A stretch of 41,502 nt of DNA, taken from NCBI GenBank assembly GCA_019359315.1, contig JAHHHO010000048.1, forward strand, positions 1 through 41,502. The letters are read 5' to 3'. The notes beneath the pieces were generated by a model, which was not told the DNA's origin, searched no databases, and worked only from the letters and a program-made list of their open reading frames with translations. Position 1 is the first letter of the stretch; each line of letters begins with the position of its first letter. This stretch comes from Myxacorys californica WJT36-NPBG1. GTDB taxonomy: Bacteria > Cyanobacteriota > Cyanobacteriia > Leptolyngbyales > Leptolyngbyaceae. Below are positions 4,707 through 31,887 of this stretch, in pieces. The position numbers and the translations under genes were made by a program.

Positions 4707-4895
4707 TCATGAAATGCTAGACGAAGCACTAGATGATGAACTGCTAGAGCTTCCGTCCTGATGAACTTTAGCTATAGTCGATTGGTAAGTTATATTTTCT
4801 TTTCCGTTCACAGTCACAGAACTCTTCGCTTCTGCAACCGTTTTACCATCAGTAGAAACAACGTATTGAATCAAAATTTTAGAATGGTTCATCAT
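4707..4895 (-). CDS. Small Ser-rich protein behind the SurA-like foldase
   Basis: A 62-residue protein. It has no double-glycine leader. The middle has alternating polar/hydrophobic segments (KSSVTVNGKENITYQSTIAK) that suggest beta strands, and the tail is almost pure serine (eight in a row, then ASSSIS). A good ribosome-binding site, AAGGAG, precedes the ATG at 4895. The gene begins 23 bases after the stop of the SurA-like gene, so the two are very likely co-transcribed. Its beta-prone, Ser-rich composition resembles the cargo parts of the precursor proteins at 5969-7083. It may be another product or an accessory of that system. No family recognised. Confidence 0.6.
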   Translation of the reverse strand: MMNHSKILIQYVVSTDGKTVAEAKSSVTVNGKENITYQSTIAKVHQDGSSSSSSSSASSSIS

Positions 4896-4918: not shown

Positions 4919-5701
4919 TTATTGGTGAAGTAAATAATTCAATTCGCCCAACAACCATTCCTGAAACAAGCGGTTTAAGATATGCTGTCTGACTTCTGGC
5001 GTTAATTGAGCCGGAATAAACTCTTCTGCCAACAGTAGATGAAAGCCACCCTCCGTCTGAACAGGCGGAATTGCTACTCCCGCAGTTGCACCAAAGATGA
5101 CGGCTGCTAAAGTTGGCTTCAACCCCGAACGATACACTACTCCTTCATAACCACATTGATGTCGGCGTTGTTCATCAATATCATAAACATGAGCCGCTTC
5201 GTAGAAACTAATTTCTCGCTCCTCAATTTGGTAAAAGATCTCGCGAGCCGTCTTCTCGTAAGGAACAATAATTTGATAGAGCAACACCTGCTCAAAATCC
5301 AGACGGCTTTGGGCGAAAAAACTTTCGACTTGATGGCCAAAAAGCTCTTGTTTGAGCTTTTCGGAGAGCAGACGATCGCGGATTCCAGCTTCCCAATCCT
5401 CTACCGTTATCTGCTGTTCTGTAAGCCATGCTAAGGTCTCTGCTGCCCGCTCTAGGCGAAACTCGAGACGCAGACGATCAGCCTCAGCTTGGATCTCTTC
5501 GGGAGCGATCGTAATCTCGCGCGATCGCGCCGCCTGGTCAATAATTCTCTGACATAAAATTCTCTGCCGAATATCCTTAAGCAGTAAGTTTTTTTTCAGA
5601 AAACCAACAATCTCGTCTGGTTGAATAGATGAACTTAAGGCTGGCTGAATCGGCGAATTTGATGAGGGAGCCATGTCGTTGTCAAGCTGAGTAAATATCA
5701 T
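4919..5701 (-). CDS. SurA-like/parvulin-type peptidylprolyl isomerase
   Basis: A 260-residue protein with an N-terminal SurA-like helical region (about 25-135, including IRQRILCQRIIDQAARSREI and ERAAETLAWLTEQQI). A parvulin-like region follows (about 140-240), with HVYDIDEQRRHQCGYEG and VQTEGGFHLLLAEEFIPAQL at the positions of the usual isomerase core. No signal peptide is visible, so it should act in the cytoplasm, unlike periplasmic SurA. Proteins of this kind often accompany HlyD/C39-ABC exporters in cyanobacteria, as I recall, which fits a chaperone for secreted precursors. The start may be the ATG at 5701 or the one at 5674; neither has a clear ribosome-binding site. Confidence 0.8.
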   Translation of the reverse strand: MIFTQLDNDMAPSSNSPIQPALSSSIQPDEIVGFLKKNLLLKDIRQRILCQRIIDQAARSREITIAPEEIQAEADRLRLEFRLERAAETLAWLTEQQITVEDWEAGIRDRLLSEKLKQELFGHQVESFFAQSRLDFEQVLLYQIIVPYEKTAREIFYQIEEREISFYEAAHVYDIDEQRRHQCGYEGVVYRSGLKPTLAAVIFGATAGVAIPPVQTEGGFHLLLAEEFIPAQLTPEVRQHILNRLFQEWLLGELNYLLHQ

Positions 5702-5968: not shown

Positions 5969-6286
5969 TTAATTGGAATAATCAATGTATGTTGAAGAAG
6001 AACTTATTTTGACGCTTGTTCTAGAATATTGCGTTCCACTTTGTGCAACTGCTGTGCCGTTTGCCTGAACAGAGCTATTGCTTGAGAAAGAGGTGTTGGT
6101 AATTTTTGTTGAAACGCCAGCAAAAGTCAAGGTTTGTTGCCCAAAAGCGTAGCTAGACACATTTCCAGAAGCAAAGTTATATCCGGTAAATACACTAGCA
6201 TTTACTTCAGTGTTAACGCCTCCTAAAAGAGCAGTAGATGTAGATGCCTGGGGGTTGATAAAGTCTAGATCTTCGATAGGTACCAT
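5969..6286 (-). CDS. Candidate double-glycine-leader precursor 1
   Basis: A 105-residue protein. The N-terminus MVPIEDLDFINPQAS, followed by ALLGG at 19-23, resembles the leaders of cyanobacterial double-glycine precursors cut by C39 peptidases. Cleavage after Gly23 would release about 82 residues rich in Ser, Thr, Asn and Val with alternating polar/hydrophobic pattern (LTFAGVSTKITNTSF) and no Cys. GGAG lies ten bases before the ATG at 6286; the ATG seven bases further upstream is in another frame. The gene sits in the same cluster and orientation as a C39-ABC exporter. It shares GYNF and the spacing AVA...SSTY with precursor 2. Function unknown; a secreted structural or signalling polypeptide is inferred. 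Confidence 0.7.
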   Translation of the reverse strand: MVPIEDLDFINPQASTSTALLGGVNTEVNASVFTGYNFASGNVSSYAFGQQTLTFAGVSTKITNTSFSSNSSVQANGTAVAQSGTQYSRTSVKISSSSTYIDYSN

Positions 6287-6780
6287 TGCATTGTTACTCC
6301 AAGACTCTCACACATTTCTAAGATAAAACCTGCACTTTCTTCCTGAAAGAATTTTTGAGAAGCCTATAATTCTTTTACTTCAGAGCTGCCCTATCTTAAG
6401 TTGAAGACTATTACGCATAACCTTTAACCACGAGTTGAGCGTGAAAAACTCGTTACCTGGGTTAGGCAACTGTATCAGCTAAGGAATCTTCAATCTAATT
6501 CAGCTCAAGGCAAATTGAAGCAGTGAAAACAGCTTTTCAAAAATTTGCTCAAGAAAAGACCCCGCACTTCAATATAGGACAAACCGAAAATAAAAGATTC
6601 AATGCAACTCTGAATCTTATTTTATCGATGTTCTATAGTTTATTTGTATTCGGGAAGTTTTGATGATTTTTCTGCGGAAAGAAAGCCGGTGAGCATCGCA
6701 AAGATTGCAGATGCTCGCCAACTTCTTTTGTCAACTCAGAAAATTGCTTCTATCAGCCAATCTGGTTAATGAAAGCAAAA
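6287..6780. other. 494-base AT-rich spacer between precursors 1 and 2
   Basis: It should hold the promoter of precursor 1 at its left end and the terminator of precursor 2 (6688-6719) at its right. I see no convincing gene. A 47-codon plus-strand frame starting with GTG near 6522 lacks a ribosome-binding site. Confidence 0.5.
6688..6719 (-). terminator. Hairpin after precursor 2
   Basis: GGTGAGCATC (6688-6697) pairs with GATGCTCGCC (6710-6719) with one wobble, 62 bases downstream of the precursor 2 stop. On the minus strand it is followed by a T-rich stretch. It probably ends the precursor 2 transcript. Confidence 0.6.
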
Positions 6781-7083
6781 TTAGTGATGGTGGTGGAAGT
6801 AAGAGCCAGCTGAAGCAGAAACAGAGGTTGCGTTAGACGCAGAAGCTACTCCTTGCTTGGTATAAGTGGAAGAAATTGCTTGAGTGGATGTATTGTAACC
6901 CTCTGCTACAGCATCAGCTTCAGCGCCAGCAAAGTTGCCATACACATCAACTTTCGACTTAAGATACTTGTTGATGTATAGGTTTTCATAGATATTGGAA
7001 GAGTGGTTGCCACCAAAATTGTATCCACCTAAAACATCAGTCTCTTCAGCAGGTTGTAGATAGTTTAGATCAGAGATAATCAT
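6781..7083 (-). CDS. Candidate double-glycine-leader precursor 2 (His-tail)
   Basis: A 100-residue protein. The leader MIISDLNYLQPAEETDVLGG ends in Gly19-Gly20 and is a clear match to the cyanobacterial M-I-I-S-D-L-N-Y-L...GG leader type. The predicted cargo is 80 residues: YNFGGNHSSN, then a charged stretch, then an Ala/Ser/Thr-rich region, ending in SYFHHHH. Four terminal histidines suggest metal or surface binding but prove nothing. AGGAG lies seven bases before the ATG at 7083. Its upstream region shares a 16-base element with that of precursor 3 (7167-7182), and it has its own hairpin terminator. Likely exported and trimmed by the nearby C39-ABC protein; this is inference from leader and context. 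Confidence 0.8.
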   Translation of the reverse strand: MIISDLNYLQPAEETDVLGGYNFGGNHSSNIYENLYINKYLKSKVDVYGNFAGAEADAVAEGYNTSTQAISSTYTKQGVASASNATSVSASAGSYFHHHH

Positions 7084-7166
7084 CAGATTGCTCCTAGAAA
7101 ATTGTTTTTTTCTGTTTCAACTCTGCTTGAGTTGATATTTATAAGATATGTTTTTTGTTGTTGTGC

Positions 7167-7182
7167 GTGGGGTCATTTTGGC
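7167..7182 (-). promoter_or_regulatory. Shared 16-base element upstream of precursor 2
   Basis: GTGGGGTCATTTTGGC on the plus strand, ending 84 bases before the start codon at 7083. The identical 16 bases occur at 7868-7883 upstream of precursor 3 in the same orientation. It is a candidate operator or promoter element for co-regulation. The GGGGTC core recalls half of the HetR palindrome, but the full palindrome is absent. Confidence 0.45.
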
Positions 7183-7266
7183 TCATTCTCGAATTTGTTT
7201 TGAGAATTTAATTCCAGTAATCCTCAAATTCTAGCAGTCTAGAAGTTTCCCTTTATTTCAGCAAAA

Positions 7267-7299
7267 CAAGTGCCAAACTCTTATATTCTCTGGCACTTG
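7267..7299 (-). terminator. Hairpin after precursor 3
   Basis: CAAGTGCCA (7267-7275) and TGGCACTTG (7291-7299) form a perfect 9-bp stem. On the minus strand it is followed by TTTTG, 90 bases downstream of the precursor 3 stop. It separates the transcripts of precursors 3 and 2. Confidence 0.65.
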
Positions 7300-7389
7300 A
7301 GAAGTTGTTTTATTTTGATTGCTTTAAAGCAGATTTGAAAGCTTGTAAAGGCTCAAAATTTAGTAGGCAACATCAGCTTTATGGGCAAG

Positions 7390-7725
7390 TTATCTAAAAG
7401 AATTGAAAAGCAAGCCCCAGAATGAGATAGGTGTTAAACCGCTGCTTTGAGTGGCTACTCCAACGACAGTTGATGAGGCTGTAAAACCGCCATTCTCGTT
7501 GTTGCTGTTAATTGAAACCGCAAAACCTGGCGCTTGCTCATAAGATAGCTGAATACCAGAAGGAGATTGAGGAAGGGTTGTTTGGAAGAGCTCTGTGTCG
7601 CCTTGTCTCAAGATAAGCTGTTGGTTATTAAGATTCAAAACAAGAGAGTTTGAAGCTAAGCTACTGCCTACAATACTCTTGTTGTCAGGAGAATAAACTA
7701 AATGGTCTAAATCAGTGATGAACAT
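7390..7725 (-). CDS. Candidate double-glycine-leader precursor 3 (GS variant)
   Basis: A 111-residue protein starting MFITDLDHLVYSPDNKSIVG, with Gly20-Ser21 where precursors 1 and 2 have Gly-Gly. The M-x-I-x-D-L-[DN]-x-L core is shared. GS is tolerated at some C39 cleavage sites in the wider family, so export is still plausible. The remainder is beta-prone (LVLNLNNQQLILRQGD) and ends in a hydrophobic segment ISFWGLLFNSFR, which differs from the other cargos. GAGGA lies eight bases before the ATG at 7725. The 16-base element at 7868-7883 lies upstream. Function unknown. Confidence 0.7.
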   Translation of the reverse strand: MFITDLDHLVYSPDNKSIVGSSLASNSLVLNLNNQQLILRQGDTELFQTTLPQSPSGIQLSYEQAPGFAVSINSNNENGGFTASSTVVGVATQSSGLTPISFWGLLFNSFR

Positions 7726-7867: not shown

Positions 7868-7883
7868 GTGGGGTCATTTTGGC
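7868..7883 (-). promoter_or_regulatory. Shared 16-base element upstream of precursor 3
   Basis: Second exact copy of GTGGGGTCATTTTGGC, about 143 bases upstream of the start at 7725 and just after the terminator of the HetP-like gene. Two exact 16-base copies 700 bases apart, each upstream of a leader-peptide gene, suggest a regulatory role. Confidence 0.45.
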
Positions 7884-8036: not shown

Positions 8037-8525
8037 TTAGCTCAACCTCATCTTGGCTATTTCTAGCGGTTCATAAATCCCTTGTGAATTAATAGGCGAT
8101 CGCGCTCCGTAATCGCCAAACCGTTCGAGTGCCTGAGCGCAATTCAGAACGGAGCCATACTTCGGAGCATCGGTATTTGTCCACCATTCAAAGTGACCAC
8201 CCCGAATTTCCGTCTTTTGTTTATCTAACACTTCTAAATAAGCTAAATCAGGCGTTTTGTTAAGATGCGATCGCAGAGAATTCGCAGCACCCGTTTGATG
8301 TTGGTCTTTAGCCCGAATTTCCTGAAGATTTTCTTTGACTAACCGATTGTAGGTTCGGCGAGGAATGTAGTGACAAGGATTGTAACCTGCGAACCGCAAA
8401 ATCAGGATACATGCCCAGGAATACTTCCCCTCAAGAATGGCATCAACAACCTGAGTAAATTGCTCAGGAGTCATTGCTTTATCGGTTTTGCTATCGGATT
8501 GAGCGTAATAATTTGAGGGATTCAT
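8037..8525 (-). CDS. HetP-family protein
   Basis: A 162-residue protein of the HetP family, whose founder promotes commitment to heterocyst development in Anabaena. The conserved core is visible at about residues 17-68: KAMTPEQFTQVVDAILEGKY, then SWACILILRFAGYNP, then IPRRTYNRLVKEN. A second conserved patch, DLAYLEVLDKQKTEIRGG, follows at about 93-110. The C-terminus after about 115 is not recognised. AAGGAG precedes the ATG at 8525. It lies 39 bases after hlyD on the same strand, so the two are probably one operon, and a HetC-like exporter lies upstream. HetP relatives also occur in cyanobacteria without heterocysts, so its presence does not prove heterocysts here. A regulatory role is inferred from the family. 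Confidence 0.88.
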   Translation of the reverse strand: MNPSNYYAQSDSKTDKAMTPEQFTQVVDAILEGKYSWACILILRFAGYNPCHYIPRRTYNRLVKENLQEIRAKDQHQTGAANSLRSHLNKTPDLAYLEVLDKQKTEIRGGHFEWWTNTDAPKYGSVLNCAQALERFGDYGARSPINSQGIYEPLEIAKMRLS

Positions 8526-8564: not shown

Positions 8565-9923
8565 TTACAAGTTGACATCGCCTTGTAGTTTCTTAAATGG
8601 CTCCGTCAGAAGATCTAAAATCCGACGGCGACGCGTGACGATTTCAGTGGTTGCTGTTTGTCCTGACTTAAACAAAACTTTTTGATGCTCTTTTGTAACG
8701 TAAGTCCGGTCTAACTCCACCTCAACTCGGTAGACTTGCCCAAGCTGCTCGTTGGCTTGGGCATCCGGAGAGACCGTCATTACCTTACCCGCAATCACGC
8801 CGTAATCTTGGTATGGGTAAGCGTCAAGCTTCACTTGCACTGGCATTCCAGCCTTGACAAAGCCTGCTTCCCGATTGGGCAGCATGGCCGATACGACCAG
8901 CGGTTTGCCGCTAGGGGCAATTTCAGCGATCGGTTGTCCTATCTGTACGACTTCTCCCGGATTATGAACATTGAGGGTGGAAATCATCCCATCTGCAGGG
9001 GCATACAGAAATTGTTGTTTTAATTTGGTATTTGCCGCTTTGATTGAGGTTTCTAGCTGGCTAATCTTCGCTTGCAGTTGAGCAATTTTGATGTCTTGCT
9101 GCTGCGATCGCTGTTTTGCCTCCTGCTGAAATTCCTTCTCTTCCGTTTGCTTTTGTTTCAGCCCGACTTGCGATCGCTGGGCTTCCGCAATCAGCCGCTG
9201 GAGGGTTCCTTCGTGTTCGGTAATCGTGCGCTGATGAGTCCGCAACTGTTGCTCTATCTGAAAGATTTGCTCTTGTGAGATAGCTCCCGCCACCACTAAC
9301 GGTTGTAATCGGCTCAAACGCTCTTCTTGGGCAGAGGCATCTACCTGTAACTGTTCGAGCAACTGTCGCGTTGTGCTGATATCGCCCTGTGCTTGGGCAA
9401 CTTCTACCTCCTGCGCTTGCGTGGCTGCCTGAATGACAGCTACATGCGTGCGATCCTGTTGTTGGCTCTGCGTCAGCAAATTATGCATTTGGCTCAATTC
9501 AGTTTGAGCCGCCGCCAAATCTTTTTCTAAACGCTCTACTTCACGGGTTGCCAGTTCTGTATCGAATTCGACCAAGACCTGTCCTGCTTTGACCACATCT
9601 CCTTCTTTGACCAAAACACGAGCCACTTTGCCCGTCTCTACGGGATTCACTTTGTAAACATTGCCTTTGGGAATCAGTTTCCCTTGACCGTAAGCGACTT
9701 CATTAAGTTGCCCAAACCAAGCCCAAGTCGCAAAGCAAACTAAAAAGGCAACTCCGCCTACTGCTAGCCGAAAAGGAAGCACCGAAGGAGGCTGGTCAAG
9801 CAGGGTGCGTACAGGAATAGACCAATTTGATGAAGCAGTATTGTCTATTGAATTAGTTGGGGATGTCTGTAGCTGACGATCGGGGGGCTGGGAACGTCGG
9901 CTTTGAGGGGCAGTATTGAACAT
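8565..9923 (-). CDS. HlyD-family membrane fusion (adaptor) protein
   Basis: A 452-residue periplasmic adaptor for an ABC exporter. It has a short cytoplasmic N-terminus, one membrane helix at about 52-72 (LAVGGVAFLVCFATWAWFG), then a lipoyl-like half (VNPVETGKVARVLVKEGDVV, about 90-110). A long coiled coil rich in Gln/Glu spans about 130-300. The second lipoyl half follows (LYAPADGMISTLNVHNPGEVV) and then a beta-barrel region to the end. GAGG lies five bases before the ATG at 9923. Its partner is the C39-ABC protein encoded upstream at 10574-13801. Together with an outer-membrane TolC-like channel, not present here, they would form a type I secretion complex. The HetP-like gene follows in the same operon. 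Confidence 0.92.
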   Translation of the reverse strand: MFNTAPQSRRSQPPDRQLQTSPTNSIDNTASSNWSIPVRTLLDQPPSVLPFRLAVGGVAFLVCFATWAWFGQLNEVAYGQGKLIPKGNVYKVNPVETGKVARVLVKEGDVVKAGQVLVEFDTELATREVERLEKDLAAAQTELSQMHNLLTQSQQQDRTHVAVIQAATQAQEVEVAQAQGDISTTRQLLEQLQVDASAQEERLSRLQPLVVAGAISQEQIFQIEQQLRTHQRTITEHEGTLQRLIAEAQRSQVGLKQKQTEEKEFQQEAKQRSQQQDIKIAQLQAKISQLETSIKAANTKLKQQFLYAPADGMISTLNVHNPGEVVQIGQPIAEIAPSGKPLVVSAMLPNREAGFVKAGMPVQVKLDAYPYQDYGVIAGKVMTVSPDAQANEQLGQVYRVEVELDRTYVTKEHQKVLFKSGQTATTEIVTRRRRILDLLTEPFKKLQGDVNL

Positions 9924-10573: not shown

Positions 10574-13500
10574 CTAAAGATCAAGTTGCTGTTGAGCAAG
10601 GTGATAGTAAAGTCCTTGGAGTGCAATTAGCTCATCGTGAGTTCCTTGTTCAACAAGAACCCCGCGATCGAGAACCAAGATCCGATCGGCGTTTCTCACC
10701 GTCGATAAACGGTGAGCAATGATAAAAATGGTGCGTCCGCGACTAAACCGCGCCAAATTTTGTTGAAATCGACGTTCTGACTCTGTATCTAGAGAGCTTG
10801 TAGCTTCGTCGAGAATGAGTAAGGCTGGACTGCCTAGTAGGGCACGCGCGATCGCAATTCGTTGCCGTTGCCCACCCGATAAATTCGCGCCACGTTCGCC
10901 TACTTTGGTGTTGTATCCCAATGGCAAGTCCTGAATAAAGGTGTGAGCTTCTGCAAGTTTGGCAACGTCCACGACTTCATTTAGCGTGAACTCTGGACGG
11001 TAAAGCTGAATGTTTTCCAAAATAGTGCCAGAGAACAAGAAGCACTCCTGCGGCACAATGCCCATCTGCGATCGCAAAGATTGTGGAGACACATGTTTAA
11101 TGTCGTGTCCATCCAGCAAAATTCGACCACTGGTAGGGTGATATAGCCCTTGCAACAGCTTCACAAGCGTACTTTTTCCAGAGCCACTCCGCCCAACGAT
11201 CGCGATCGTTTGCCCCGCTTGGACAGTAAAGGAGATATTTTGCAGAGTATTGTGTTCTTCTGCCGTGTCGTAGCTAAAGGTCACATTACTAAACTGCATC
11301 TCTCCCTGGATAGAGGGCAACACAAACATCGGTTGTCCGGGAGTTTCTTCCGGTTCTGTTGCAAACACATCATTTAGGCGTTCCACTGAGATTAAGACCT
11401 CCTGGAACTCGTCCCACAAGCCAACTAGGGACAGAACTGGGCTAAGGACATTGCCGACTAGCATATTGAACGCTACAAATTGCCCAATTGTGAGTTCGCC
11501 CTGAATCACTAATGTTGCTCCGTACCATAGGAGCGCCGTGCTACCCAAGGAATTGATTGTCCCTCCCACAACTTGTAGATTGTTGGCAAACTTTTGTCCC
11601 TTAAATTGAACATTAAGTGTCGTTGTCAGGCTGTCTTCCCAGCGCCAACGGACTTCGCGTTCAGCCGCAACCGATTTCACTGTAGCAACGCCTGTCAGCA
11701 TTTCAACCATCAAAGAGTTCTGTTCGGCCGTTGCATTAAAGACTTCTCGTGAGATTTGTCTCAGAAATGGGGTTGCCCCAAGCGTGAGGAGTGCGATCGG
11801 TGGAATTAAAGCGAGTACTAGCAGAGTGAGCCGCCAGTTGTAGTAAAACATCAATCCGAGGTAGACGATCGCCATTGACGCATCTAACCAAGTAGAAATC
11901 GCTTGACGCATGAGAAACATCTGAATTTTGCGATTCTCTTGCACGCGCGTAATGATGTCACCCACTTGACGAGCTTCAAAAAATTTCAATGGCAACGCCA
12001 ACGTGTGACTGATAAAAGCGCTAATTAACGTGAGATCGATTCGGTTGGAAAAGTAATCCAATAGATACTGACGAACGGCAACCAATCCAACGCGCCAAAT
12101 ACCAAACAGAATCAACCCTATCGAGAACACATGAAGAGTCGCCAAACTTTTTTGGGTGACGACTCGATCTAGAATCACTTGTGTAAATAGAGGAGTGATA
12201 AGACCAAATACCTGCACTAACAAAGACAAAAAGATAATTTGCCAAAGTACAGAGCGGTAAGACCACAACACTCCCCAAAAGCGTCCAAGATCCGGCTTTT
12301 CTGTTTTTGCGTTCCTGAGTTGAGAGGTAGGATCTAGAAGCAAGGCGTACCCTGTCCAGCTATTCAAAAACTCTTGGCGCGTCAAGTTGCGTTTTCCGCA
12401 GGCGGGATCAGCAACGAGCACTCGATCGCCCTTGATCCGATAGACAACTACGTAGTGATCGCCCTGCCAATGAGCAATCCAGGGGTTTCCCTGTTCCTCC
12501 AAGCGACTGAGACTCGCCCGCACAGGTCGTGCCTGAAAGCCCACGCTCTCTGCGGCTACTGCCAGGTTCTTGAGGGAAGCTCCCGATCGCCCTACCTTGG
12601 CTAGATCTCGCAGAAGGTTGATCCCAAATCGCTTTCCCCAAAACTGACCAATCATGCTTAAACAAGCAACGCCGCAATCTGACGAACTTTGTTGCTGAAT
12701 GAACGGATAGCCATACAAGAGCCTTGGTTGCCAGCGACGCCGTTTTGTCGGTTTGGGAAACGGCACGATCGTGCCTTCGCTGCGCGAAGATCTGTCTTGC
12801 TTGGGGGAACGGACTGGCTCACTCGATGGCTTGGCTCCTACAGGTGGAACTAACCGGGGCTTAGAGCGGTCTGCCTTGGGTGAAGTCTCTGCGGCCTTGG
12901 GCTGCAAAGATCTACTTGTTGGGGGGCTTGCTGACGTTGTGCGAGTACTTTCTGAGCCGTTGGTCGCTGCTGCTAAAACAGGCGCGATCGCAGTTTTCCA
13001 GTGCTCGATCGAAACTTTGTAAATCAGCAGATCTGTCTTTGCTCTCCAATCGGTTGATGTATCTTGGAGACGGCTCCAACTTGCACCCACGCCCATTGGC
13101 TCAGATGAGCTGTTAACATCCTCTACCTCGCCCTGGCGCAACCAAAAATAACCAGATTGACAGGCGTCTACCTCAGATAATGCCGTGCCAGCAGAAACCT
13201 GGATTTCTTCTAAATAAGGCAACCACTGCTGAATTTGATAACTCGTTAGCAATTCTGTTGCTACACCGTCAACACTTCTAGCAAGATAGGCTCTCAGAAA
13301 AACCAGGCGTTCTCGCTGAATGGCCTGCTGTTTAATCACTTCTCGCAGTGGCGGAAATCGCTCAAACCAAGGCTCTAACTGAGACAGAGAGAGGTGGGCA
13401 ACTTGACCCCCACTCGCACCGATAGCTTCATAGCTTAATGGCGCGTTGCAAAACTGAGAATCGCCTCCAAATGTCTCTCCTTCCTCTAGCACCAGTGCTG

Positions 13501-13801
13501 AGACTTGACGCTGTCGGATCGGATCGTTACAAAGAATACGCACCCGACCCTGACAAACTACATAGAGAGACTCAATTTGTTTATTCTGAACAGAAGTATC
13601 TGAAGCATCTGATAATCTATAATTAAGCAGAGAGTCTCCTAGCTCAAACTGGGTCATATTCAATAGCTGACTGAGCGCTAGTACTGACGTTTCAGATATT
13701 TCTGTTACCGATAAGAGTTTGAGGATAGCGAGGTCTTTCGTAGAGATAGACAGAGGAGCCTCAGAAGATCGCTCCACTTTAGATCCAGAATTCTTGCTCA
13801 T
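10574..13801 (-). CDS. HetC-like ABC exporter with cyclic-nucleotide-binding-like and C39 peptidase domains
   Basis: A 1075-residue peptidase-containing ABC transporter. It has a cNMP-binding-like fold at about 50-165, a degenerate second one near 195-275, and a basic Pro/Ser-rich linker at about 285-355. The C39 peptidase covers about 360-495 with catalytic Cys376 (QSSSDCGVACL), His449 (GDHYVVVYRI) and Asp465 (VADPACG) all present. A six-helix membrane domain follows, then the ATPase with Walker A VGRSGSGKST, signature LSGGQRQRIA, Walker B LLILDEATSSLD and the H-loop HRLS. This order matches Anabaena HetC. The ATG at 13801 has AAGG five bases upstream; a GTG at 13804 is possible. It should cut double-glycine leaders while exporting the cargo through HlyD. 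The leader peptides at 5969-7725 are candidate substrates. Confidence 0.92.
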   Translation of the reverse strand: MSKNSGSKVERSSEAPLSISTKDLAILKLLSVTEISETSVLALSQLLNMTQFELGDSLLNYRLSDASDTSVQNKQIESLYVVCQGRVRILCNDPIRQRQVSALVLEEGETFGGDSQFCNAPLSYEAIGASGGQVAHLSLSQLEPWFERFPPLREVIKQQAIQRERLVFLRAYLARSVDGVATELLTSYQIQQWLPYLEEIQVSAGTALSEVDACQSGYFWLRQGEVEDVNSSSEPMGVGASWSRLQDTSTDWRAKTDLLIYKVSIEHWKTAIAPVLAAATNGSESTRTTSASPPTSRSLQPKAAETSPKADRSKPRLVPPVGAKPSSEPVRSPKQDRSSRSEGTIVPFPKPTKRRRWQPRLLYGYPFIQQQSSSDCGVACLSMIGQFWGKRFGINLLRDLAKVGRSGASLKNLAVAAESVGFQARPVRASLSRLEEQGNPWIAHWQGDHYVVVYRIKGDRVLVADPACGKRNLTRQEFLNSWTGYALLLDPTSQLRNAKTEKPDLGRFWGVLWSYRSVLWQIIFLSLLVQVFGLITPLFTQVILDRVVTQKSLATLHVFSIGLILFGIWRVGLVAVRQYLLDYFSNRIDLTLISAFISHTLALPLKFFEARQVGDIITRVQENRKIQMFLMRQAISTWLDASMAIVYLGLMFYYNWRLTLLVLALIPPIALLTLGATPFLRQISREVFNATAEQNSLMVEMLTGVATVKSVAAEREVRWRWEDSLTTTLNVQFKGQKFANNLQVVGGTINSLGSTALLWYGATLVIQGELTIGQFVAFNMLVGNVLSPVLSLVGLWDEFQEVLISVERLNDVFATEPEETPGQPMFVLPSIQGEMQFSNVTFSYDTAEEHNTLQNISFTVQAGQTIAIVGRSGSGKSTLVKLLQGLYHPTSGRILLDGHDIKHVSPQSLRSQMGIVPQECFLFSGTILENIQLYRPEFTLNEVVDVAKLAEAHTFIQDLPLGYNTKVGERGANLSGGQRQRIAIARALLGSPALLILDEATSSLDTESERRFQQNLARFSRGRTIFIIAHRLSTVRNADRILVLDRGVLVEQGTHDELIALQGLYYHLAQQQLDL

Positions 13802-14624
13802 CACATCCTTCCAGAAGGTTAAATTCAGATTAGTAGGGAGTCTGAAGAAGGAGTAGCCTTAACGCTGATTAGCACAGAGCTGCGTTCTGTAAGAACCGCA
13901 GGCATCCTCAGCCTCTTTATAGGCAATCCCACCGGAGTAGACTCATAAATTTGTTTTATTCGACCGCGAAAATCTGCTAAATTGCCGAAGTGATAGTTCA
14001 GCAATCATTGATAGACATGCTGCTGAGATAGACATGCTGCTGATGCAGATGAAGTTTCGCTCTTTCAATTGAATTCAGTTACCCACGCGTGACTTTGAAT
14101 GAACGCCTTGCTCAACATCGCCGTTAAAATTTTTGGCTGCATTCATTTTTTGTAGTGCGAGTAATTAACTTGCCTCCTATGGAGTAGTCTTTAATCGATG
14201 CTACTGAGTATCTGTAAGCAATCCAAAAATGCTGATTACATCAAAACTTGTCGTTTCACGATTCATCAGACTTGCCATCGTGATAACGCTTATGAATTTG
14301 GATAAGGTTGCTTTGACAAAGTCAGGATTTAGCAAGATCTAGCGTGAAAATTTAGCTCATCAAACTAACCGGAGCGTTGACTAACTGGAGCGTTGCTCGT
14401 AACTCGAAACGGGTAAAGACAATAATTTTCACGGTCTTTCTATATCCACTGCAAGGTTAATCGCTCGAGTTTAAGACTGTCAAGGCAATCTCAATACATC
14501 TTTAGATCTATTTGGAAAATCAATAATTTACCAAAATCCCTATAGCTTCCAAGAAATACACTGTACGGTAAGTCCTAACGAATTACTTTATGATGATTTG
14601 TACTTGTTTTGTGAGTTGACCATC
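13802..14624. other. 820-base spacer between the exporter gene and ycf23
   Basis: An AT-rich divergent promoter region. It contains a 17-bp tandem repeat at 14011-14044. I see no convincing gene; a 23-codon minus-strand frame near 14149-14078 has no good ribosome-binding site. It marks the edge between the accessory cluster and core genes. Confidence 0.5.
14011..14044. repeat. 17-bp tandem repeat, two copies
   Basis: ATAGACATGCTGCTGAG followed directly by ATAGACATGCTGCTGAT (one difference). It lies about 210 bases upstream of the exporter start, possibly in its regulatory region. Confidence 0.6.
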
Positions 14625-29748: not shown

Positions 29749-31887
29749 CTAGCGGAAGCGACGCATTAGCCGTCGGATGAATCGTTTAATTTGCTGCAAG
29801 AGTCGATGAAAAAGGGACGGACGCCGAATCAGACGCGGATTGGATGGGGTCGATGGTTCAATCCTCTGCATTTGCTGACGAACGATCGCCAGGTTTTCTC
29901 GCACCGTTTGCGTATTGGGATGATTGGTTCCTAACGTTCTCTCCAACATCGCCAACGCTTGCTCGTACAATGGTTCTGCCTCGCTGTAGCGTCCTTGGGA
30001 ATCGTAGAGAAGTGCTAAGTTGTTCAGGCTCGTTGCCACATGCGGATGGTCGCCTTCAAACAGCCGTTGCGTCATTGCCAACGCTTGCTCGTGCAACGGT
30101 TCTGCCTCGCTGTAGCGTCCTTGGGAACGGTAGAGAAGTGCTAAGTTGTTCAGGCTCGTTGCCACATGTGGATGGTCGCCTTCAAACAGCCGTTGATGCA
30201 TCGCCAACGCTTGCTCGTACAACGGTTCTGCCTCGCTGTAGCGTCCTTGGGAATCGTAGAGACCTGCTAAGTTGTTCAAGCTCCCTGCTACACCCGGGTG
30301 GTCGCCTTCAAACAGCCGTTGCTTCATCGCTAACGCTTGCTCGTACAATGGTTCTGCCTCGCTGTAGCGTCCTTGGGAATCGTAGAGACCTGCTAAGTTG
30401 TTCAAGCTTGTTGCCACATGCGGATGGTCGCCTTCAAACAGCTCTTGCTGCATCGCCAACGCTTGCTCGTACAATGGTTCTGCCTCGCTGTAGCGTCCTT
30501 GGGAACGGTAGAGAAGTGCTAAGTTGTTCAGGCTCCTTACCACAGCCGGGTGGTCGCCTTCAAACAGCCGTTGCGTCATTGCCAACGCTTGCTCGTACAA
30601 CGGTTCTGCCTCGCTGTAGCGTCCTTGGGAACAGTAGAGACCTGCTAAGTTATTCAGGCTTGTTGCCACAGCCGGGTGGTCGCCTTCAAACAGCCGTTGC
30701 GTCATCTCCCAGCATTCTGAATACCAAAATTCTGCTTGAGCGAAAAGTGCCTGTCCTGCATAAAATCGCGCTAGTCCAACAAACGACCACACCAGAGCAT
30801 CTCCTTCCAATCCTTCTGTGTGGCGCTCTGCTACTTCTTGAACATGCGATCGCACTTCCGAAAACCAGTCAATATCCTTCGTCGGTGGGTTATATGGCAG
30901 TTGACTCGCGATCACTATCATGTCCGAAACAAACGCCGATCGTAACGGTGCTTCGCCTGCGGTTTTAGCCGCCTCTGCTTCCTGTTCTTGCAAAAACTGC
31001 CGAATCAAAGGATGCAATCGACACACCGAAGGAGCATCCTTTTCAATTTGCACCAACGATGCATTCTCTATTCGCGCCTTTAGTTCTCCCAGCGCATACG
31101 CCCCTCCCTTTACACGCTGCATCGTCCGTTCCGCTAAGTCCCACCGAATCCAATCGAGAGCGAAATAACTCAACAAGCGGGCAACCTCTTGTGCGTCAGC
31201 CTCCATCGTTTTCCACGTCAGGTTAAACGCTGCTTTCACACCCAACTCGGCGGTAATTTCATCCTCCTGCGATCGCTCTAATGCTGGATCCCGCATTCCA
31301 TTTTCTTGCAACCGTCCCCAAACCTGCGAGAGCGTAATGTGTCGATCTCTGGCGAGATAGCAACCTACCAGTTCGATCCCCAACGGCAAATAGCCCAATC
31401 CCTCGCAAAGTTGGTCTGCCAGTTCTGGCTGCTGATCAACTCGCCCATAACCCTCCAACCTTGCCAGCAGAGATCGCGCCTCTAGCGGCTGCAACATCTC
31501 CAGATCGATCCGAGGAAAGTTGGGCAATAAATCTTTTCGGCGCGTCGTCACCAGCACCCGAAACCGAGCCTCTTTTGGATAATACGATCGACACTTCGCC
31601 CACTCGCCTATGTCATCCAACACCACTAGCGTCGTTTCATGGGGCGTCCAATGCCTCCAGCACCACTGCACCAAGTCACCGAGATTCGTGCATCGCTCTT
31701 TCGCTGCCGCCAATCCCTGCAATTGCAGATCAAATTCCGCTTTCAGAAGAATCTGAGTCGCTAGATCACCCGTCCGCCCGTTTAACCAATAGATGCCGCC
31801 CGGATAATCTGCCTTGTGTCGAGTCGCATACTGCACCGCTAACTGAGTCTTGCCTACACCTCCCATTCCGGCTACCGCAGAAATCAC
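29749..31887 (-). CDS. NB-ARC ATPase with C-terminal TPR repeats (upstream part beyond a TGA)
   Basis: A STAND-type protein, 712 residues from the first usable start. NB-ARC has Walker A GMGGVGKTQLA, Walker B TLVVLDD, and RNBS-like VLVTTRRKDLL. A helical linker follows, then seven kinesin-light-chain-type TPRs of 42 residues (SEAEPLYEQALAM..RLFEGDHP..SLNNLA.LY.SQGRY), the first six almost identical. The end is basic (RLLQQIKRFIRRLMRRFR). The reading frame stays open upstream to 32022 without ATG, GTG or TTG. It encodes YTASPNFVGRIDELDRLHEI, the usual segment before an NB-ARC P-loop. Only a TGA (32023-32025) separates it from the small protein upstream. So the true gene is probably 29749-32403, now interrupted. 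Such proteins sense invaders or signals; the ligand is unknown. Confidence 0.85.
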   Translation of the reverse strand: MISAVAGMGGVGKTQLAVQYATRHKADYPGGIYWLNGRTGDLATQILLKAEFDLQLQGLAAAKERCTNLGDLVQWCWRHWTPHETTLVVLDDIGEWAKCRSYYPKEARFRVLVTTRRKDLLPNFPRIDLEMLQPLEARSLLARLEGYGRVDQQPELADQLCEGLGYLPLGIELVGCYLARDRHITLSQVWGRLQENGMRDPALERSQEDEITAELGVKAAFNLTWKTMEADAQEVARLLSYFALDWIRWDLAERTMQRVKGGAYALGELKARIENASLVQIEKDAPSVCRLHPLIRQFLQEQEAEAAKTAGEAPLRSAFVSDMIVIASQLPYNPPTKDIDWFSEVRSHVQEVAERHTEGLEGDALVWSFVGLARFYAGQALFAQAEFWYSECWEMTQRLFEGDHPAVATSLNNLAGLYCSQGRYSEAEPLYEQALAMTQRLFEGDHPAVVRSLNNLALLYRSQGRYSEAEPLYEQALAMQQELFEGDHPHVATSLNNLAGLYDSQGRYSEAEPLYEQALAMKQRLFEGDHPGVAGSLNNLAGLYDSQGRYSEAEPLYEQALAMHQRLFEGDHPHVATSLNNLALLYRSQGRYSEAEPLHEQALAMTQRLFEGDHPHVATSLNNLALLYDSQGRYSEAEPLYEQALAMLERTLGTNHPNTQTVRENLAIVRQQMQRIEPSTPSNPRLIRRPSLFHRLLQQIKRFIRRLMRRFR
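29925..30715 (-). repeat. 126-bp tandem repeats encoding TPR units
   Basis: Six nearly identical copies plus one diverged copy of a 126-base unit (42 codons). The high DNA identity between copies, including third positions, points to recent unequal exchange or gene conversion. It also produces a long meaningless plus-strand open frame at 29844-30968. Confidence 0.9.

Follow-up and report, generated by a model that had tools for sequence, protein, structure and literature searches.

The closest described relatives of the locus analyzed here come from three lines of work. Wang, Fewer, and Sivonen (2011) described group I and group II clusters that combine a long exporter with a CAP_ED domain, HlyD, a SurA-type rotamase, and a HetP-like protein with several double-glycine (GG) precursors of diverse cores, and they reported the motif KIXDLXYLEX10GG in the HetP-like proteins of group II, tentatively attributed it to an M16 peptidase, and read it as a bacteriocin feature (PMC3140520). 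In Synechococcus elongatus PCC 7942, secretion of the small proteins EbfG1-4 is reported to depend on PteB, an exporter described as HetC-like in domain organization whose C39 cysteine is required for efficient secretion (PMC4997328), and EbfG1-3 form amyloid (PMC4997328, PMC9981879). HetC itself is described as essential for functional heterocysts, and its N-terminal part as an active cysteine protease with catalytic residues that heterocysts need (PMC10986499), and HetC lacking the peptidase region was compensated by extra hetP expression (PMC4133259). By the account of Rachedi 2024, no leader-bearing gene was found near hetC; the same authors propose a HetC substrate whose N-terminal part stays and whose exported part signals, and they name HetP as a possible source of peptides (PMC10986499). 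A membrane-fusion gene is likewise absent from the neighborhood of hetC as described in PMC10986499 and PMC4133259.

We examined a window of 41,502 nucleotides, the whole stretch of DNA that was analyzed, from Myxacorys californica WJT36-NPBG1, whose genome comprises 6.0 Mb in 128 contigs. The cluster of interest lies entirely on the minus strand, in the order exporter, HlyD, HetP-family protein, three precursors (P3, P2, and P1), rotamase, and a Ser-rich open reading frame (ORF):

10574..13804, minus strand: exporter with a cNMP-binding domain (residues ~73-147), a C39 peptidase (residues 366-494), and ABC membrane and ATPase domains
8565..9923, minus strand: HlyD-type periplasmic adaptor (TIGR01843, 237 bits, above cut-off)
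8037..8525, minus strand: HetP-family protein, HetP domain at residues 8-66 (NF037966, 113 bits against a cut-off of 45)
7390..7725, minus strand: precursor P3, 111 aa, 90-aa cargo with a hydrophobic C-terminus
6781..7083, minus strand: precursor P2, 100 aa, 80-aa cargo with a tetra-His end
5969..6286, minus strand: precursor P1, 105 aa, 82-aa Ser/Thr-rich cargo
4919..5701, minus strand: PpiC/SurA-like peptidyl-prolyl isomerase, the rotamase (PF00639, 32 bits, above cut-off)
4707..4895, minus strand: Ser-rich ORF, 62 aa, without leader; 10 of the 48 cyanobacterial exporter loci hold homologues

The exporter matches PF03412, PF00664, and PF00005, and PF00027 slightly under its cut-off, and its sequence holds QQQSSSDCG, HYVVVY, ADPA, Walker A and B motifs, and LSGGQ, which we take to carry the usual catalytic meaning. 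The first-pass annotation had proposed one leader type with GG/GS sites adjoining a C39 exporter, and the C39 and ABC motifs found in this neighbor provide the linkage by which double-glycine precursors are recognized. Membership of the third protein in the HetP family follows from its domain score above the curated cut-off, and the rotamase also matches TIGR04500 with an E value of 1.7e-16, yet under that model's cut-off. Among the eight cluster proteins scanned with Pfam and NCBIfam, no M16 peptidase was recognized. Across the 48 cyanobacterial exporter loci, a HlyD match accompanies the exporter in 38, HetP in 40, and the rotamase in 28, with several loci cut by contig ends; the nearest exporters that were found belong to assemblies named Leptolyngbyaceae, the best segments being 79% identical (L078, on a short contig) and 75% identical (L071). 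Elsewhere in the window, at 29749-31887, a large ORF carries near-identical tetratricopeptide-like repeats of ~42 residues behind an ATPase-like start, as read from its translation.

With its long exporter, HlyD, rotamase, HetP-like protein, and several precursors, the window has the gene set of the group I/II clusters, and the P1-P3 cluster by itself is a further example of a kind already described; both this kind of cluster and the HetP motif have been on record since 2011 (PMC3140520). Our reading departs from that work in treating the N-terminal leaders and the HetP motif as one pattern that follows the C39 exporter, rather than as an M16-related or bacteriocin feature. The likeness to PteB-EbfG lies in a C39 exporter accompanied by several small GG-motif proteins, the EbfG cargo being described as extracellular and, for EbfG1-3, amyloid; it is a likeness of exporter and gene set. 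HetC-HetP of Anabaena and Nostoc shares with the window a cNMP-C39-ABC exporter with hetP downstream, and two Anabaena exporter-hetP loci (L072 and L080) have the same internal HetP motif and no HlyD match. The window differs in having HlyD, a rotamase, and three extra precursors, and since HlyD adjoins the exporter, which does lie upstream of hetP, we call that exporter HetC-like and do not file it as HetC.

The leaders of the three precursors are as follows:

7663..7725, minus strand: P3 leader MFITDLDHLVYSPDNKSIVGS, GS at residues 20-21
7024..7083, minus strand: P2 leader MIISDLNYLQPAEETDVLGG, GG at residues 19-20
6218..6286, minus strand: P1 leader MVPIEDLDFINPQASTSTALLGG, GG at residues 22-23

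All three are short N-terminal leaders that end in GG or GS, as in double-glycine precursors (the class allows GG, GA, and GS), and share the type I-x-D-L-x-[YFH]-[LI]...GG/GS, of which P1 is an atypical example; purine stretches resembling ribosome-binding sites precede all three starts. The single leader type of the first-pass annotation thus stands, with two corrections of detail: the proposed M-x-I-x-D-L start reads M-x-x-I-x-D-L, one residue longer, in P1, and the cleavage-site range of residues 20-23 suits P3 and P1 but not P2. A regular expression for the leader with ATG starts matched exactly P1, P2, and P3 in the window and nothing in 20 Markov shuffles of it. Across the cyanobacterial exporter loci, 48 in all, the expression matched 61 non-HetP leaders with ATG starts; these lie in 28 loci, 54 of the 61 are on the strand of the exporter, and three shuffles of all 48 loci gave no match. 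With ATG, GTG, and TTG starts and HetP frames included, there were 71 matches in 849 kb of these loci, whereas 20 non-cyanobacterial loci, 351 kb in total, gave 2. No ATG-started leader occurs in 20 of the 48 loci; of the 26 loci that span 19 kb or more, 9 lack one.

At the whole-genome level, a leader profile of 21 positions and 21 rows, the window leaders themselves being among those rows, ranked P2 first (E 6.3e-8) and P3 second (1.9e-7), with P1 (0.0016) fourth behind an ORF on a different contig (0.0012), and the fifth match fell to E 1.1. The ORF on the other contig (L267, 488-820), which lies near the contig end, begins with MLINDLSYLESISEPNTVSGG followed by an 89-aa remainder. Since a close relative is found within a HetP-P3-P2 type cluster of another genome (G014, L238), this ORF resembles a cluster precursor located apart from the cluster in the present genome. 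P1-P3 were not matched by the NHLP or Nif11 (N11P) family models; a search of NCBIfam and Pfam that admitted E values as high as 1 returned only weak matches to ribosomal L31 and CBM39, both far under cut-off. The CTB-family bacteriocin model NF038167 had no match in the genome of the window, but none in any of 14 control genomes either, which makes its silence uninformative.

The cargos are of about 80 to 90 residues, as had been stated, and the tetra-His end of P2 and the hydrophobic C-terminus of P3 are both real in the sequence. The tetra-His itself is variable: 22 aligned P2 relatives end in FRHW, YYRW, YYYW, FFFFH, or similar letters, or have no tail, so that the family end, where present, is a short aromatic/His tail. 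The absence of Cys holds for P1, P2, and P3 and does not extend to some P2 relatives (L038, L069, and G051). The notion of three different cargos applies to P3, which stands apart, but less well to P1 and P2, whose iterated profiles find each other's families (the P2 profile matched L038 17737-18057 with an E value of 2.4e-10, to which composition bias may contribute). Their sequences suggest that the P1 and P2 cargos, both of alternating small and polar residues, are distant relatives, with P3 separate.

Leader-bearing homologues comprise 21 further aligned proteins for P2, 5 for P1, and those in L008, L013, L016, L019, L023, and L071 for P3. Cargo-only searches of 58 genomes gave four P3 and three P2 matches outside the genome of the window, and all seven matched frames have the leader; leaderless cargo homologues, which the first-pass annotation had named as evidence against its reading, were thus absent for P2 and P3 in these genomes. 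Within exporter loci, matches of the P1 profile without a clean leader occur in L050 and L062 and as a fragment in L044 (10502-10729). An AlphaFold2 model of P2 has a mean pLDDT of 50 and shows no fold, and is therefore uninformative. By analogy with EbfG1-4, a matrix, sheath, or adhesion role of the cargos is plausible.

Candidate regulatory elements lie upstream of P3 and P2:

7912..7933, minus strand: terminator-like hairpin between HetP and P3, 9 pairs of which 5 are G-C, then a T run
7868..7883, minus strand: 16-nt element GCCAAAATGACCCCAC upstream of P3, identical to 7167-7182
7167..7182, minus strand: 16-nt element GCCAAAATGACCCCAC upstream of P2, identical to 7868-7883

The 16-nt element has exactly two exact copies in the whole genome, those upstream of P2 and P3, and at two mismatches it gains 2 more sites versus 5 for a backwards control, which is background. 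In another genus of the family (L019), the stretch upstream of a precursor has GCCAAAATGACCCC as at P2 and also repeats the -10-like TATCTTATAAA box and the 5' CAACTCAAGCAGAGTTG hairpin found at P2. Terminator-like sites in the region number 6 against 2.8 expected. The hairpin after HetP and the elements upstream of P2, P3, and the L019 precursor therefore indicate that the precursors probably have their own promoters. HetR sites are palindromes. The genome encodes a HetR-like protein, and HetR binding was considered for the 16-nt element and dropped, as the element is without the second half of a palindrome.

While the earlier description of leaders and cargos largely holds, it missed that the same motif, reported for HetP-like proteins in 2011, lies inside the neighboring HetP:

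8196..8255, minus strand: internal leader-like motif of HetP, TPDLAYLEVLDKQKTEIRGG, residues 91-110
8040..8195, minus strand: 52-aa C-terminal tail of HetP after the GG, which would be the exported part if HetP were cleaved

The window's copy is atypical in reading TPDL instead of IxDL. An AlphaFold2 model of HetP shows helices, with pLDDT 93-97 over residues 21-70 and low confidence over the motif, a stretch that on this prediction is probably disordered; the best Foldseek match of the model in the PDB had an E value of 4.6. A position-specific scoring matrix trained only on the 61 N-terminal leaders (48 unique block pairs), with HetP excluded, gave the window HetP motif a score of 17.9, compared with at most 15.1 for 6800 shuffled tails and a 99th percentile of 4.5. 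That percentile was exceeded by 55 of 68 distinct HetP tails of at least 14 aa, a set that leaves out duplicate tails and shorter ones, including those of L026 and L077, HetPs that lie in clusters and have no motif. Thirteen tails fell short of it: those of ten HetPs encoded outside exporter loci in heterocystous genomes (L109-L118), of L024, of the fragment L027, and of L054, whose motif is diverged but can still be made out by eye. The spacing from HetP domain to motif is 10-99 residues (median, 29; n = 55), and 6-64 residues follow the GG (median, 26). Positions L94, G109, and G110 do not vary across an alignment of 29 HetPs, made up of the window's and 28 chosen from 43 ORFs at exporter loci; the GG invariance is overstated because L077 and L081, a cluster HetP with a weak motif, were among the 15 not aligned.

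To relate motif to exporter, we turned to the family that includes the Anabaena azotica genome G058, here called Nostocaceae, with a sample of 40 genomes of which 36 were counted, the HetPs of G058, G062, G063, and G065 being left out. Every HetP match of the 36 genomes was taken with ~4.5 kb on each side where the contig allowed, which gave 89 stretches with 90 HetP domains, and a HetP was called exporter-linked if an exporter match lay no more than 4 kb upstream on its own strand. The motif, scored above the weak cut, occurs in 25 of the 26 HetPs that have an exporter upstream and in 11 of the 64 that have none (Fisher p 1.1e-12, without correction for kinship); L189 is the one with exporter and no motif. 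As for the 11, L147 keeps GG, L162 and L148 have GS, and L178 keeps GG with the front of the motif broken; L165 lies near a contig start, with hetC at the end of another contig, and the remaining six have lost GG at that site. The N-terminal leaders and the HetP motif are thus one pattern that tracks the C39 exporter.

Twenty hetC-linked hetP orthologues have GG in 18 cases and GA and GR in one each, and most of them have a tail of ~36 residues that contains W-L close to its beginning and ends in CEFN-like letters. Among the surveyed HetPs, GG is replaced by GRG in L171 and by GA in L164. In 14 genomes, the sole hetP orthologue with a recognizable remnant has no exporter upstream, and the best whole-genome HetC match, from 21 candidates scored per genome, is 40-50% identical; intact hetP-linked exporters are 46-73% identical to HetC, and because these ranges overlap, synteny was used as the criterion. 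A fifteenth case is L182, in genome G096, where the best HetC match (52%) is the exporter of a neighboring HlyD-type cluster. In L152 (5950-6570) and L156 (2643-3407), truncated or rearranged hetC remnants lie upstream of a hetP that still bears the motif, which fits recent loss of hetC and also weakens the link between motif and exporter.

In a tree computed from 36 hetP orthologues with the motif excluded, loss of hetC takes nine changes, at least four of them forced by strongly supported branches, and loss of the motif also takes nine. Four independent pairs on supported branches changed the motif in the same direction 3.3 times on average and in the opposite direction 0.0 times, and one of 200 pairings holds a single opposite pair; with only four independent pairs, a sign test cannot be significant. 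For this tree, some states were set by hand: the motif was scored as present in L162 (GS) and L164 (GA) and as decayed in L148 (GS, I replacing L), L171, and L178, and hetC was scored as linked in L165 across the contig break and in L152 and L156 despite the remnants. The hetP tag usually decays where hetC is gone. Five motif-less HetPs of the Nostocaceae (L191, L209, L223, L227, and L231) have a similar 36-aa tail near exporter, HlyD, and rotamase matches, with no exporter upstream on the HetP's own strand.

Our results lead us to propose, with good though not full confidence, that P1-P3 are precursors of secreted proteins addressed to the adjacent exporter, and that HetP bears this address too and should dock on, and perhaps be cut by, the C39 domain of that exporter. 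The ~20-residue leader of P1-P3 would be the address for the cNMP-C39-ABC exporter, whose C39 domain would bind it and cut after GG or GS, and the cargo would then exit through the exporter, HlyD, and an outer-membrane channel, perhaps assisted by the rotamase, to act most likely outside the cell in matrix, sheath, or adhesion. HetP should dock on the same domain because the same address lies inside it, and since its tag sits behind the regulatory domain, cutting would keep the HetP domain in the cytoplasm and send the C-terminal tail out. The wider claim, that HetP-family regulators are clients of HetC-type exporters, with C39 cutting after GG, the HetP domain freed inside, and the tail exported, is one we advance tentatively, at somewhat less than an even chance. 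If true, many hetC-linked hetP genes would supply an exported part of ~36 aa, frequently with the CEFN-like end. The rescue of peptidase-less HetC by extra hetP expression fits a HetP limited by processing, and other readings of it exist.

Instead of being cut, HetP might simply be held at the exporter, the motif serving only for docking or tethering and the tail not being exported. The published localization is compatible with this, as HetC-GFP and HetP-GFP are both described as concentrating near the heterocyst poles and HetP with a C-terminal GFP as functional and seen in the cytoplasm (PMC4133259), and degenerate C39-like domains are reported to bind substrate without cutting (PMC10986499). 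The retention of GG in 18 of the 20 hetC-linked hetP orthologues, against one GA and one GR, is a constraint to be expected from cutting more than from docking alone, and we regard docking without cutting as rather unlikely. Less probable still, and in our view improbable, is that P1-P3 are ordinary bacteriocin precursors of the group I/II kind and HetP merely a further one. The gene set is the same, and Wang et al. list ten HetP-like precursors in group II, with their KIXDLXYLEX10GG motif (PMC3140520); yet no modification enzyme beyond the rotamase and no immunity gene were recognized among the eight cluster proteins scanned, the two systems of this kind considered here whose functions have been tested act, as described, in biofilm (EbfG) and differentiation (HetC), and HetP is predicted to have a conserved folded domain ahead of the motif, unlike a leader peptide. 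That the motif is a relic of an old precursor-HetP fusion without present function, as might be thought from its ability to vanish while HetP remains, is most unlikely given the invariance of L94, G109, and G110 in the chosen set of 29 HetPs and the loss of the motif following loss of the exporter.

A published link between HetP and the leader of a HetC substrate was not found in a literature that was mostly open access, the nearest being Wang 2011 and Rachedi 2024. The precursors of the window reveal the leader pattern of HetC-type exporters, by which the neighboring HetP can be recognized as a candidate substrate, and HetP is thereby a testable candidate for the missing HetC cargo. With the leader pattern lying inside HetP and following the exporter, the question of the HetC substrate becomes directly testable. 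If HetP is indeed a client of these exporters, it would be the missing HetC substrate, and the same arrangement would also export matrix-like cargos in clusters of the type seen in the window. Secretion and the control of cell fate would then be coupled.
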